From positions 395,267 to 459,266 of the forward strand of contig NZ_JAAORJ010000002.1 of the NCBI RefSeq assembly GCF_017696315.1: DNA of 64,000 bases, given 5' to 3'. Positions 2,509-8,186 of this stretch are shown here, one piece after another. Within the stretch, counting starts at the first letter, position 1, and each line of letters opens with the position of its first letter. The translations under genes were made by a program, and so were the position numbers. The stretch comes from Prochlorococcus marinus XMU1412 (lineage in GTDB: Bacteria; Cyanobacteriota; Cyanobacteriia; PCC-6307; Cyanobiaceae). The notes under the pieces are model-generated. The model made no database searches. It saw nothing but the letters and a program-made list of their open reading frames with translations, and was not told the DNA's origin.

Positions 2509-3093
2509 ATGAGCTTAAGAGTTGGCCAAGAAGCACCAGACTTTAGTGCTACAGCAGTATATGATCAAGAGTTTAAGGAGATTACACTTTCAGGTCTAAG
2601 AGGTAAATGGGTTGTTCTATTCTTTTACCCACTAGATTTTACATTTGTATGTCCAACTGAAATCACTGCATTTAGTGATAGATACCAAGATTTCTCAGCA
2701 CTTAATACGGAAATACTTGGGGTATCAGTTGATAGCAAACACTGTCATTTGGCTTGGATACAAACCCCAAGAAACGAAGGTGGTATAGGTGATATTAACT
2801 ATCCCTTAGTTTCTGACTTAAAAAGAGAAATTTGCCAGGCGTACAATGTTCTAAATGATGATGGGGAGGCTGATAGAGGTTTATTTCTTATCAATCCCGA
2901 AGGAGTAGTTATGCATACGACTGTTAACAAGGCTCCTGTAGGAAGAAATGTAGATGAAACGCTAAGAATTCTTCAAGGTTATCAATACGTTGCGGCAAAC
3001 CCTGATGAAGTATGTCCAGCAAACTGGACCCCCGGGGAGAAAACAATGTTAGAGGACCCCAAAGGTAGTAAGGAATATTTTTCTGCGCTATAG
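2509..3093 (+). CDS. Typical 2-Cys peroxiredoxin
   Basis: A thioredoxin-dependent peroxidase that reduces H2O2 and organic hydroperoxides. The peroxidatic Cys48 sits in FTFVCPTE and the resolving Cys169 in EVCPANW. Active-site Pro/Thr and a full thioredoxin-like fold of usual length (194 residues) are present. In cyanobacteria this class (2-Cys Prx, AhpC/TSA family) takes electrons from thioredoxin and protects photosynthesis against peroxide. It is transcribed alone, with a clear promoter upstream (2426-2455) and a strong hairpin terminator after it (3164-3188). The ATG at 2509 is preceded by AAGGA. Whether the C-terminal tail makes it sensitive to overoxidation was not assessed. Confidence 0.95.
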
Positions 3094-3108: not shown

Positions 3109-3861
3109 TTAAGTAAGTATTGAGTAGTAAATAATTATAAAAAAATAAAAAATAAATATATTCAAAAAGGGGATAAAATCCCCTTTTTGAGGTTTGGGCA
3201 CGATCCAATCACTCAAATTAGTTTTATATGATAGGAAGGACCAGGTATAAAAAGAAAATTCTATGGCAACTAGGATAAAAAGATTAATTAAATTTAAGTC
3301 ATTTAAGCCAAAATATCTATATATATAAAACTTATCATCTACACTAATATTATTAATTTGAAGATGCCAAATATAGAGAGAATTCAAAATAAAATTTACC
3401 AATATTATTTTTTTTAAAAGAAACCTAGATTTCTTAAAAATTAATAGGATAGAAATTAAAAATATGAAAAAACTTAACTGTGGAATATCCGGTTTTGGTA
3501 CATTAATTCCTTCAAGAAATAAATTAAATATAAGATCAAAATTTATATATATATAATCAGCTATTAAGTAAGAGAGAAATATTAAATTTATTGCTACTAA
3601 GAATAATAATCTTTTTCCTTTAATTATTTTTATACTATGGATTTTATCCTTAGTAAAATTATAATATGTATAGTTTTTTATAGAATTTATATAGACCAAA
3701 GATGGACATATTGCACCGCTTAAATAGTAGAGGATTGAATAAAAGGAAATATCATTAATATTGAGTGAATACAAATTTAACCATTGTTTTTGAACAAATG
3801 GAAGAATAAGTAGAAATGAAAGTGTAACTAATAACTTAGTTGTATTGTTTTTAATTATCAA
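3109..3861 (-). CDS. Polytopic membrane protein, unknown function
   Basis: A 250-residue hydrophobic protein with about six predicted membrane helices, including segments near residues 8-24, 86-105, 130-143 and 230-248. The soluble loops are short and rich in Asn, Lys and Tyr. One conserved-looking loop reads GINVPKPDIPQL. No family recognised. It lies downstream of ftsH on the same strand. Its last ~25 codons run through and beyond the terminator of the opposing peroxiredoxin gene, so the two genes share DNA at their 3' ends. Confidence 0.65.
   Translation of the reverse strand: MIIKNNTTKLLVTLSFLLILPFVQKQWLNLYSLNINDISFYSILYYLSGAICPSLVYINSIKNYTYYNFTKDKIHSIKIIKGKRLLFLVAINLIFLSYLIADYIYINFDLIFNLFLEGINVPKPDIPQLSFFIFLISILLIFKKSRFLLKKIILVNFILNSLYIWHLQINNISVDDKFYIYRYFGLNDLNLINLFILVAIEFSFYTWSFLSYKTNLSDWIVPKPQKGDFIPFLNIFIFYFFIIIYYSILT
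3164..3188 (+). terminator. Rho-independent terminator of peroxiredoxin gene
   Basis: AAAAAGGGGAT and ATCCCCTTTTT form an 11-bp stem with an AAA loop, ending in a T run. It works in principle in both directions. On the minus strand it is inside the coding sequence of the 3109-3861 membrane protein. Confidence 0.85.
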
Positions 3862-3893: not shown

Positions 3894-5648
3894 TCAAACT
3901 TTCAACAATTTAGAAGTTGTTAATTTAAAAACTTTTTTATCTATAGTTTCTTGATTTAAAAGTATATCAACTAGTTTATCTAGTAAGACTCTATTTTTTT
4001 TCAATATTTTTATTGAATTATTTAAAGAAATTTTAGAAATGTTTATGATTTCGTTATCTATTTTAGAACTGGTATTTTCTGCTATGAGAGGCTTTCTTCT
4101 AAATAATCCATCTCCTAAATACATTTCATTATTATCAGAATCCATTGAAATTGGACCAATAATTGAAAATCCATATTTTGTAACCATTTCCCTTACGATA
4201 TTTGTCGCATAAGCGATATCATTTATCGAACATTGTGTAATTTCACCTTCACCAAAAACTATCGTTTCTGCTGCTCTTCCAGCTAGAGCAATTTCAATTT
4301 TTGAAAATAATAATTTTTTTGAAATCAATCCACTAGAAATTACATCTTCGTCAGGGCATATTTTTGTATATCCTCCTATAGATCCAGATCTAGGTAAAAT
4401 CGTAATTTTTTCAACTGATTCAATTCCATTTCTCACAGCAGATACAATTGCTCTACCTACTTCGTTATAAGCAATAATTTTTTTCATATTAGGAGAAGTT
4501 ATTAATGAGCTTCTCAGGCCAATGGTAATTTTATCAAGAGCATTTTCTATATGAAGATCACTGATTAATTTAGATTCATCTCTTGCACAGTGAATAGCAC
4601 TCTCGTTCATCAAGTTTGCAAGATCTGCTCCCGAAAATCCAACTGTTCTAGAAGCCCAATATCCTAAGTCAACTTCGTTTGAAAGTGGTTTGGAAAGTGA
4701 GTGAACTGAAAGAATTTTTTTTCTTCCATCTAAATCTGGAAGCATTACTTCAATTTTCCTATCAAATCTACCTGGTCTTAATAATGCTGCATCCAAGATA
4801 TCTGGTCTATTTGTTGCTGCCAAAACAATAATCCCAGAATTATCAGCAAAGCCATCTAATTCAGTTAGAAGCTGATTAAGGGTTTGTTCTCTTTCATCAT
4901 TTCCACCTCCGATCCCAGACCCTCTTTGCCTACCAATGGAATCAATTTCATCGATGAAAATTATACAAGGAGATTTTTCCTTAGCTTTAGAGAACAGATC
5001 ACGAACTCTGCTTGCTCCAACACCAACAAAAAGTTCTACAAACTCTGATGCAGATATTGAGAGAAAAGGCACTCCTGATTCACCAGCAATTGCTTTAGCT
5101 AATAATGTTTTACCTGTTCCAGGCGGGCCTATTAGAAGAACTCCCTTAGGAACTTTTGCTCCAAGATTTTCAAATTTCTTTGGTTCTTTCAAAAATGTTA
5201 TTACTTCTTTTAATTCCTCAGCGGCTTCAGGGACGCCAGCTACATCATCGAATCTGGTATCTACATCATCAATAGTTACAAATTTAGCTTGATTTTTGGT
5301 AAAACCAAAAGCTCTTGAAGCCAATTTTGATGTACTCCTCAAGATTAAGACTATAGCTAATATGAAAATCAGGAAAAGACTTATTGAAGCAAATGAATTA
5401 GCAGCTGAGGCTTCTTTTCTACTATTGTTAATAGTTAGATCTACCTTATTTTCAGTTGCCTTTTCAAGGATTAATTGATCGTTGTAAAGGATAGGTATTT
5501 TAAATTTATCGCCATTTTTATACAGAACATCAATTTCTCTCTGCCTTGGATAGAAAAATATTGATTCTATTTTCCCTGTCTCTATATCTTCTAGAAGATC
5601 CGAATAACTTGATTTAGAATCTGAATATGAGAATTTTGATCTAAACAC
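3894..5648 (-). CDS. ftsH: FtsH-family AAA protein with inactivated protease site (FtsHi-like)
   Basis: The AAA ATPase module is intact: Walker A GPPGTGKT at residues 174-181, Walker B IIFIDEID at about 229-236, and an SRH ending [11 protein letters not shown]. An FtsH extracellular-type domain ([14 protein letters not shown]) and one membrane helix (about 85-104) precede it. The zinc motif HEXXH of active FtsH reads NEVGR (residues 395-399): both His ligands are lost and Glu is kept. The third-ligand region still has Asp (SINDIAYAT). The first membrane helix is absent. The gene starts at a GTG (5648) with an in-frame TAA nine bases upstream, so no longer start is possible. I infer an ATP-dependent unfoldase or a regulatory subunit of FtsH hexamers, as for plant FtsHi proteins, not a protease. 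Confidence 0.92.
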
Positions 5649-5779: not shown

Positions 5780-5950
5780 ATGGCTGTACCAAAGAAGAAA
5801 AAATCAAAGAGCAAAAGGAACCAAAGGCACGCTGTTTGGAAAGGAAAAGCAGCGACAGCAGCTCAAAAAGCTATATCTCTAGGTAAATCAGTTTTAACTG
5901 GGAAAGCTCAAGGATTTGTTTATCCTATTGAAGAAGAAGAAGAAGAGTAG
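5780..5950 (+). CDS. rpmF: 50S ribosomal protein L32
   Basis: A 56-residue basic protein beginning [20 protein letters not shown], the signature start of bacterial/plastid L32. It forms part of the large ribosomal subunit near the exit region. The zinc-binding cysteines of some L32 proteins are absent, as in the Cys-less (C-minus) type. The C-terminus is an acidic run of Glu residues. It has its own intergenic region upstream and is convergent with ycf20, whose stop lies 3 bp away. Confidence 0.95.
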
Positions 5951-7203: not shown

Positions 7204-7551
7204 ATGAAATCATGGACATGTATAGAAAATTGTGGAGCTTGTTGTAAATTCGACTTGAATGAAAGAAGCGATTTGGCTAACAAACTTAACAACGAAGATA
7301 TAGCTTTGATAAATTCGATGACGGCTGAAGACGGTTGGTGTAAAAATTTGGACAGAGAAAATAAAAAATGCTTAATTTATGAAACCAGACCACATTTTTG
7401 CAGGGTAAGTGAATTTTCAACTTCATTTAAAGGATATTTGAAATCTGGTGATAAATTTTTAATAGATTGCTGTAAACAACATATTTCATCAAATTATGGA
7501 TACAAAAGTAAAGAAATGAAAACTTATAGAATTGCTATTTCAGAAAAATGA
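7204..7551 (+). CDS. YkgJ-family cysteine cluster protein
   Basis: A 115-residue protein with an N-terminal cluster Cys6, Cys10, Cys13 and Cys14 (CIENCGACC). Further Cys occur in GWCKNLDRENKKCLIYETRPHFCR and DCCKQH. This is the zinc or iron-sulfur chelating pattern of the YkgJ (CxxxCxxCC) family. Function in cyanobacteria is unknown. Its stop overlaps the ATG of the next gene by 4 bp, so it is coupled to the two GDT1-like half transporters, perhaps pointing to metal handling. Confidence 0.85.
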   Translation: MKSWTCIENCGACCKFDLNERSDLANKLNNEDIALINSMTAEDGWCKNLDRENKKCLIYETRPHFCRVSEFSTSFKGYLKSGDKFLIDCCKQHISSNYGYKSKEMKTYRIAISEK

Positions 7552-7874
7552 ATAGTAAATTAGAAAAAAAAGAAAACAATCTAGAAAAAAGTTTTTTTTC
7601 AATATTTATAACGACATTTACAACAATTTTTATTGCTGAACTTGGCGATAAAACTCAGATAGCCACATTAATGCTTTCTGCTGAATCGGGCAGGCCAATA
7701 GTAGTTTTTATTGGAAGTTCTCTTGCATTAATAAGCTCTAGCATAGTAGGAGTTCTTATTGGTAAGTGGGTATCAAAAAAAATATCTCCTAGCAAATTTG
7801 CTTTATCTACTGGTACTTTAATGATATTGATAAGTATATTTTTGGCTTATGAAACATTCAGAAATTATTTATAA
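7548..7874 (+). CDS. GDT1/TMEM165 (UPF0016) half-size transporter, first half
   Basis: A 108-residue, three-helix protein with the signature ELGDKTQ (residues 31-37) of the UPF0016 cation/H+ exchangers. Full-length members carry two such repeats. Here each repeat is a separate gene, as in the hemi manganese exchangers of some cyanobacteria. Predicted role: export of Mn2+ (possibly Ca2+) from the cytoplasm or into the thylakoid lumen as part of a heterodimer with the next gene. ATGA overlap with the YkgJ gene. The next ATG follows its stop with no gap. Confidence 0.88.
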   Translation: MNSKLEKKENNLEKSFFSIFITTFTTIFIAELGDKTQIATLMLSAESGRPIVVFIGSSLALISSSIVGVLIGKWVSKKISPSKFALSTGTLMILISIFLAYETFRNYL

Positions 7875-8186
7875 ATGGTTTTAAGTTTATTACTATCAAC
7901 ATTTCTAACCGTTTTCATAGCTGAATTAGGTGACAAAACTCAACTAGCTACTTTAACTATAAGCGGCACTTCAAATAAACCATTAGCAGTTTTTCTAGGA
8001 TCCTCTTCAGCACTTGTTTTTGCAAGTTTACTAGGAGCTTTAACAGGTGGTTCCATATCAAGTTTTTTACCCGAAGTAGTTCTTAAGTCAATAGCGTCCA
8101 TTACATTTTTCATCATTGGTCTAAGGCTTTTTATCAACTCTTTAACCATCGAAAAAGAAGAAAAAGAAGAGAAAGAAAATAATTAG
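7875..8186 (+). CDS. GDT1/TMEM165 (UPF0016) half-size transporter, second half
   Basis: A 103-residue partner of the previous gene, with ELGDKTQ at residues 17-23, two further helices, and a charged Glu/Lys C-terminus. The starts TAAATG junction and near-identical repeat motif suggest duplication of one half-transporter gene and obligate pairing. Likely a subunit of a manganese exchanger. The acidic tail is absent from the first half, giving the pair a built-in asymmetry. Confidence 0.88.
   Translation: MVLSLLLSTFLTVFIAELGDKTQLATLTISGTSNKPLAVFLGSSSALVFASLLGALTGGSISSFLPEVVLKSIASITFFIIGLRLFINSLTIEKEEKEEKENN

Follow-up and report, generated by a model that had tools for sequence, protein, structure and literature searches.

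The DNA analysed here, hereafter the window, is a stretch of 64,000 nucleotides from the genome of Prochlorococcus marinus XMU1412. Near its beginning, the minus strand carries an open reading frame (ORF 3894-5648, Table 1) whose product is a relative of the zinc metalloprotease FtsH. Pfam recognizes an AAA module (E 4.9e-47), an AAA lid (residues 326-368) and a Peptidase_M41 domain (E 2.3e-44) in this protein, which scores 648.8 bits against NCBIfam TIGR01241 (cut-off 600). The AAA core contains a Walker A motif (GPPGTGKT), a pore loop (LFVGVG), a Walker B motif (IIFIDEID) and the sequence RPGRFD. An earlier note on this DNA had described the ATPase motifs as intact, the HEXXH motif as replaced by NEVGR with the loss of both histidines, and the start of the protein as followed by an FtsH-type extracellular domain. 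Pfam and the motif alignment agree on the first point, the residues as read and aligned bear out the second, and the third holds with a weak score, the FtsH_ext match reaching 26.3 bits for a cut-off of 25.5. Compared with an FtsH zinc metalloprotease, the protein has the AAA ATPase with its Walker motifs, the pore loop and the arginine fingers, and lacks both the HEXXH motif and one of the two N-terminal membrane helices. It combines homology to FtsH, conserved ATPase motifs and lost zinc ligands, as FtsHi-type pseudoproteases do. From its residues, ORF 3894-5648 would thus encode a catalytically silent FtsH relative. The XMU1412 genome (1.73 Mb, five contigs) encodes four M41 proteins, and the other three (L002-L004) carry HEVGH, HEAGH and HEVGH; HEXGH is likewise found at all 24 paralogue loci taken from 13 genomes, which are part of all paralogues.

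Table 1. Position of the features discussed in the text (coordinates are those of the window; residues are those of the product of ORF 3894-5648).
Feature	Coordinates	Strand	Basis or remark
Zinc-less gene, probable FtsH1 orthologue (Prochlorococcus FtsH4)	3894..5648	-	584 aa, GTG start, stop included
FtsH_ext domain, residues 14-72	5433..5609	-	Pfam, 8.7e-06
Only membrane helix, residues 85-103 (= second FtsH helix)	5340..5396	-	Hydrophobicity
AAA ATPase core, residues 170-301	4746..5141	-	Pfam, motif reading
Peptidase_M41 domain, residues 384-574	3927..4499	-	Pfam; predicted fold matches solved FtsH
Degenerate HEXXH, residues 395-399 = NEVGR	4452..4466	-	Alignment
Asp477, third zinc ligand position	4218..4220	-	Alignment; Asp in 65/77 zinc-less loci
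UPF0182 remnant, N-terminal membrane part only, 250 aa	3109..3861	-	hhalign
rpl32 (rpmF), divergent upstream neighbour marking the locus	5780..5950	+	Presumed identity
2-Cys peroxiredoxin-like neighbour, convergent with the UPF0182 remnant	2509..3093	+	Presumed identity

The upstream neighbour of the gene, which I take to be rpl32, adjoins it on the opposite strand at 51 of 51 family loci (31 zinc-intact, 20 zinc-less) and stands beside it in one of five class-level relatives (L138); the ORF at 2509-3093 is presumably a 2-Cys peroxiredoxin-like gene. The zinc-intact relatives, including that of MIT9313, I assume to belong to other Cyanobiaceae. In a tree of 66 FtsH rows, whose root was not inferred and which holds no named Synechocystis sequence, the family group and the class-level relatives L137-L141 are split from three other paralogue groups with an SH-aLRT support of 100. 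The names given to these groups are presumed ones, based in part on Bonisteel 2018 (PMC6300248), where picocyanobacterial FtsH4 is equated with Synechocystis FtsH1, a relationship that its authors call less obvious than the others. The qPCR primers listed there for FtsH 4 of MED4 match a zinc-less locus (L030, NEVGR) without mismatch, and those for FtsH 4 of MIT9313 match, also without mismatch, a zinc-intact one (L259, HEIGH). The gene is therefore the probable Prochlorococcus orthologue of the cyanobacterial type-B subunit FtsH1, the name used hereafter.

The earlier note had proposed to align all picocyanobacterial FtsH paralogues at the HEXXH column; the orthologues of the gene were compared there across 150 sampled genomes of the order, XMU1412 included. 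A strong match to the gene was found in 148 of the 150, a weaker one in G096 and none in G175, whose contig breaks off within the adjacent peroxiredoxin gene; orthologues are thus present in 149/150 genomes (the window copy plus 148 fetched loci). The loss is real: the zinc site is missing in 54 of the 149 orthologues, and HE[IV]GH is kept in the other 95. Among the 53 fetched loci with a broken motif, NEVGR occurs 40 times, QIIGK six times, NEIGR twice, and NEAGK, YEIGR, HEAGR, NEVGK and RNASK once each, while further members of the same genera show HEIGK, NTIGR, NEIGI and QQVGR. Asn, Glu and Arg occupy the first-His, Glu and second-His positions at 56/56 same-genus loci, so NEVGR is not a sequencing error. 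The note had also taken an intact motif in close relatives as evidence against the loss: intact copies do exist outside the genus, where they point to a derived loss rather than to an error, and none occurs within it (56/56 broken). A pseudogene or a sequencing error was ruled out by the clade-wide change of the motif and by a reading frame that is open across the matched stretch in all 148 fetched family orthologues; the six genomes flagged for one TGA or TAA inside (G062, G067, G126, G139, G124 and G215) all have this stop upstream of a usable start. Among the matches listed from named genomes (at least 80 loci, mostly FtsH of unrelated bacteria), one is zinc-less, L175 of Prochlorococcus sp. 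AG-442-M23, possibly the same genome as that of L034; the other named Prochlorococcus loci among these matches, L181-L183, are zinc-intact paralogues.

The motor motifs have been spared. All 32 zinc-less rows retain Walker A, pore loop, Walker B and the R[PA]GRFD fingers, apart from small changes (in L168, for instance, FIG replaces FVG). The most divergent orthologue, L131 of G096 (RNASK, end branch 1.62), has also retained its Walker motifs and arginine fingers. Could the protein nevertheless still be a peptidase, by way of another metal site or another mechanism? Glu396 is kept at 56/56 same-genus loci and Asp477 at 55/56, as such a reading would have it. FtsH, however, needs HEXXH; both histidines are gone, and the glutamate is gone as well at the g26 (6/6) and g35 (2/2) loci, which leaves a residual peptidase very improbable.

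The history of the loss was read from a tree of 54 sequences from which the motif columns had been left out. All 26 zinc-less rows form one clade (bootstrap 100, SH-aLRT 98). The tree requires at least one change at the second His, two at the Glu and three at the first His; with no regain of the first His allowed, five to seven losses of it are read off. By this count the second zinc His was lost once, and the first one probably later and repeatedly. That the second His went first is probable since forms that have the first His without the second, HEIGK and HEAGR, survive. What replaced the second His is nearly invariant: Arg or Lys at 76 of 77 zinc-less loci and Ile at the remaining one. At the 56 of these 77 loci that belong to the same genus the residue is Arg without exception, written with four kinds of Arg codon, which suggests that a basic side chain is under selection at this position, even if AT-rich codon drift could account for part of the pattern, AGA and AAA being one step apart. 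Where the second His used to be, a basic residue may take the place of the zinc ion and keep the M41 fold together. An Arg-Asp pair cannot be the general form of such a substitution, because the Asp477 position, which is Asp at 65/77 zinc-less loci overall, is Asp at only one of the ten loci of genus g25, where the proposal is weak.

The N-terminus has a different history. A single hydrophobic segment precedes the ATPase in the window protein, and the minus strand reads TAA AGA TTA GTG, with an in-frame TAA nine bases before the GTG start. The statement of the earlier note that this stop excludes a hidden first membrane helix thus stands, as no such helix can be encoded there. The other family members were searched, over the 235 residues that precede Walker A, for any stretch of 19 residues exceeding 1.6 on the Kyte-Doolittle scale; in G189 the start of the contig limits the sequence before the match to 31 codons. 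None of the 148, including the 95 zinc-intact ones, has an extra hydrophobic stretch of this kind ahead of the remaining helix, and a first helix gained through an upstream start was accordingly rejected. The hydrophobic stretches located further upstream in L084, L093, L096 and L100 fall within long open frames that overlap the oppositely oriented rpl32. The idea that the missing helix is part of the inactivation is contradicted by the same count: since the 95 copies with HEXGH intact share the single-helix form, the loss of the first helix is older than the loss of the zinc site and separate from it. The class-level relatives L137-L141 have a longer N-terminus, and three of these five pass the threshold weakly (1.63-1.95). 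By eye, the N-termini of L137-L141 look less like a strong helix than like a cleavable signal peptide.

The unusual topology that the earlier note had supposed is probably not an inverted one. When the 15 residues on each side of the remaining helix are compared, the net charge is higher on the C-terminal side in 148/148 family members (mean 3.83 vs -0.43), which indicates that the ATPase should lie on the cytoplasmic side, where other FtsH proteins have it. The protein should therefore sit with its N-terminus outside and its ATPase inside. Its N-terminal domain would then need to reach the far side of the membrane in the absence of a first helix; this peculiarity belongs to the family as a whole rather than to the inactive protein. 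The i-AAA protease Yme1, which combines a single membrane helix with a different N-terminal domain and an active zinc site, resembles the window protein in the first of these features and differs from it in the other two.

Downstream of FtsH1, at a distance of 32 bp and on the same strand, lies ORF 3109-3861, which the earlier note does not mention and for which a Pfam scan gave no hit. It is a remnant of UPF0182. A profile built from 16 such sequences was aligned with one built from 12 intact proteins: hhalign gave a probability of 99.0 in global mode (E 2.9e-17, 13% identity) and of 97.7 in local mode (E 2.1e-12), the shortened protein aligning over its length to the first 300 of the 959 columns of the intact ones. 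A frame of more than 800 aa lies directly downstream of the gene at 12 zinc-intact loci (L073-L079, L081, L082 and L089-L091), and the two that were scanned by Pfam, L076 and L077, are both UPF0182. At the other zinc-intact loci UPF0182 is not adjacent; in G069 and G070, for example, some 3 kb separate the two genes, and in G087 they lie far apart. At 19 of 26 zinc-less loci a stop-to-stop frame of 256-276 aa occupies this place, the six g26 loci have none, and the contig ends in L168. Across the sample, full-length UPF0182 is present in 93 of 150 genomes, namely in 93 of the 95 zinc-intact and in none of the 54 zinc-less ones, and is absent from G175. Two genomes depart from this rule: G168 and G194 (L298 and L315) have a zinc-intact FtsH1, and no UPF0182 was found in them. 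Outside the family, UPF0182 occurs in all 17 genomes searched of 23 class-level relatives, and in G046, G053 and G057 it does not lie close to FtsH1. Constraint on the remnant is loose (dN/dS 0.33, 1032 of 1081 pairs). Since the loss of UPF0182 and that of the zinc site map near the same branch, they are not independent evidence, and the association, probably one shared event, is a lead. One reading of it would make FtsH1 an obligate silent ATP-motor subunit with Arg or Lys in place of zinc as the structural centre of its M41 fold, its loss of proteolysis being tied to the loss of UPF0182 as one main client or partner. The uncharacterised UPF0182 family would thereby be linked to a function for the first time; this reading is made less likely by the near absence of Asp477 from g25, and I hold it to be unlikely.

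Selection on the gene was estimated by Nei-Gojobori counts over close same-genus pairs with dS between 0.1 and 1.5, pairs that are not independent of one another. For the zinc-less gene, dN/dS is 0.064 overall, 0.031 in the AAA part and 0.102 in the M41 part (1078, 1071 and 980 pairs used, respectively, of 1128). The ATPase stays under strong purifying selection. The overall values of the paralogues are 0.023 for FtsH2-like, 0.015 for FtsH3-like and 0.012 for FtsH4-like genes (5/10, 13/15 and 4/6 pairs), which shows that FtsH1 is kept under a constraint weaker than theirs; other zinc-less groups have values of 0.085, 0.087 and 0.163. The recent ratio of M41 to AAA dN/dS, about 3.3, does not stand out (about 5.0 in FtsH2-like and 3.5 in FtsH3-like genes). 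On the stem of the zinc-less clade, by contrast, M41 accumulated 0.215 changes per column vs 0.057 for AAA, a ratio of 3.8 that exceeds the 1.6 of the rest of the family (summed branch lengths 4.90 and 3.11), so the loss of the site went with a stronger release of the peptidase domain than of the motor. Summed over the 26 tips of the zinc-less clade, branches reach 12.29 for M41 and 5.85 for AAA, vs 4.90 and 3.11 over the 23 tips of the rest. Such figures could describe a gene in slow decay that gave up catalysis first and is now losing the rest together with its neighbour UPF0182: FtsH1 evolves faster than its paralogues, the summed zinc-less branches are longer, individual ones such as that of L131 (1.62) are long, and UPF0182 is shortened or gone in the same clade. 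A decaying gene would hardly be found in 149 of 150 genomes with an open frame in 148/148 cases and an AAA dN/dS of 0.031, however, and I regard decay as quite unlikely.

The single-chain AlphaFold2 model, computed from 34 sequences, is of moderate quality (mean pLDDT 75.8, pTM 0.58). Its cytoplasmic part matches solved FtsH structures (2ce7_D, Z 36.9, rmsd 4.5 over 408 aligned residues; 4ww0_A, Z 36.8), and by this prediction the M41 fold should be maintained in the absence of zinc. The structure matches listed, FtsH or other AAA proteins, include subunits of the chloroplast Ycf2-FtsHi and Orf2971-FtsHi assemblies (8xku, 8xqw and 8xks). These matches, along with the preserved motor motifs and arginine fingers, would suit a separate homohexamer acting as a non-cutting motor for the unfolding or translocation of proteins, like Ycf2-FtsHi. 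The FtsHi matches are weaker than those to ordinary FtsH, however (8xku_E, a Ycf2-FtsHi subunit, Z 26.9, rmsd 11.0), and follow from the shared fold; no client is known, and in Synechocystis FtsH1 occurs with FtsH3 (PMC11287208). A homohexameric motor thus appears unlikely.

The reading that I favour, at about an even chance, is that FtsH1 persists as a proteolytically silent subunit driven by ATP, most likely next to an FtsH3-type subunit that is active. The ancestor of this clade of small-genome Prochlorococcus had its second zinc His replaced by Arg or Lys, which should have ended zinc catalysis; ATPase, pore loop and arginine fingers were kept. In a mixed hexamer with a zinc-intact FtsH3-type (type A) subunit, the silent motor would hydrolyse ATP and pull the substrate, and its partner would cut it. 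FtsH1 and FtsH2 are type-B and FtsH3 is a type-A subunit (PMC9020784), and the same review, citing Zhang 2010 and Yu 2013, reports that mutation of the type-B protease leaves photosystem II repair unharmed while mutation of the ATPase harms it. The loss of zinc from a type-B subunit with a preserved motor fits this picture. The pairing of FtsH1 with FtsH3, which is known from Synechocystis only (PMC11287208), and the tolerated loss of type-B protease favour a silent subunit in a mixed hexamer over a separate motor. Alternatively, FtsH1 could act as a dominant-negative regulator whose presence leaves FtsH hexamers with fewer cutting sites, and the coexistence of one zinc-less and three zinc-intact paralogues in XMU1412 would allow it to act in this way. 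A dead type-B protease leaves photosystem II repair unimpaired in the reviewed cases, however (PMC9020784), and a role of this kind is quite unlikely.

An inactive FtsH has been reported from Prochlorococcus before: one FtsHi is attributed to P. marinus SS120 (Mishra 2019, PMC6460958; repeated in 2021, PMC8197885) and is probably the same gene. In its accessible portions, PMC6460958 gives one strain and a count, without locus, motif series, phylogeny, helix loss or neighbour. The main text of PMC6300248 contains none of the words 'HEXXH', 'zinc', 'motif' and 'inactive', and the comparison of MED4 with MIT9313 isoforms made there is one between a zinc-less and a zinc-intact FtsH4. Searches of the open-access literature found no account of a loss across the clade, of the missing helix or of the UPF0182 link. 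To that extent, the breadth of the loss across the clade, its order with surviving intermediates, the replacement by a basic residue, the separate and earlier disappearance of the helix and the association with UPF0182 are new. Prochlorococcus FtsH1 differs from Synechocystis FtsH1, probably of the same orthologue group, by the lack of the zinc site and of the N-terminal signal-like or first-helix segment, and from its zinc-intact relatives, which share the locus and the single helix, by the lack of HEIGH or HEVGH and of the full-length UPF0182 found in 93 of 95 of their genomes. Plant FtsHi1-5 and the Ycf2-FtsHi motor likewise have an FtsH fold, lost zinc ligands and a mostly intact Walker A (PMC11266112); their motifs are TEVGV, NEAAM, REAAV and WAAGR, and FtsHi3 has none (PMC11266112). 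The comparison with plant FtsHi made in the earlier note is apt, the gene being an FtsH relative without zinc ligands and with an intact ATPase in streamlined genomes; the plant loss is likely to be independent. Few photosynthetic organisms are as abundant as Prochlorococcus. In Synechocystis, the FtsH1/3 complex is essential (PMC11287208). With a protease that seems to be off, a motor that is kept and HEIGK and HEAGR forms that survive, the role of dead FtsH subunits becomes testable in a bacterium. Elsewhere in the window, two adjacent half-size membrane proteins are encoded on the plus strand (7548-7874 and 7875-8186), which presumably resemble a UPF0016/GDT1 pair.
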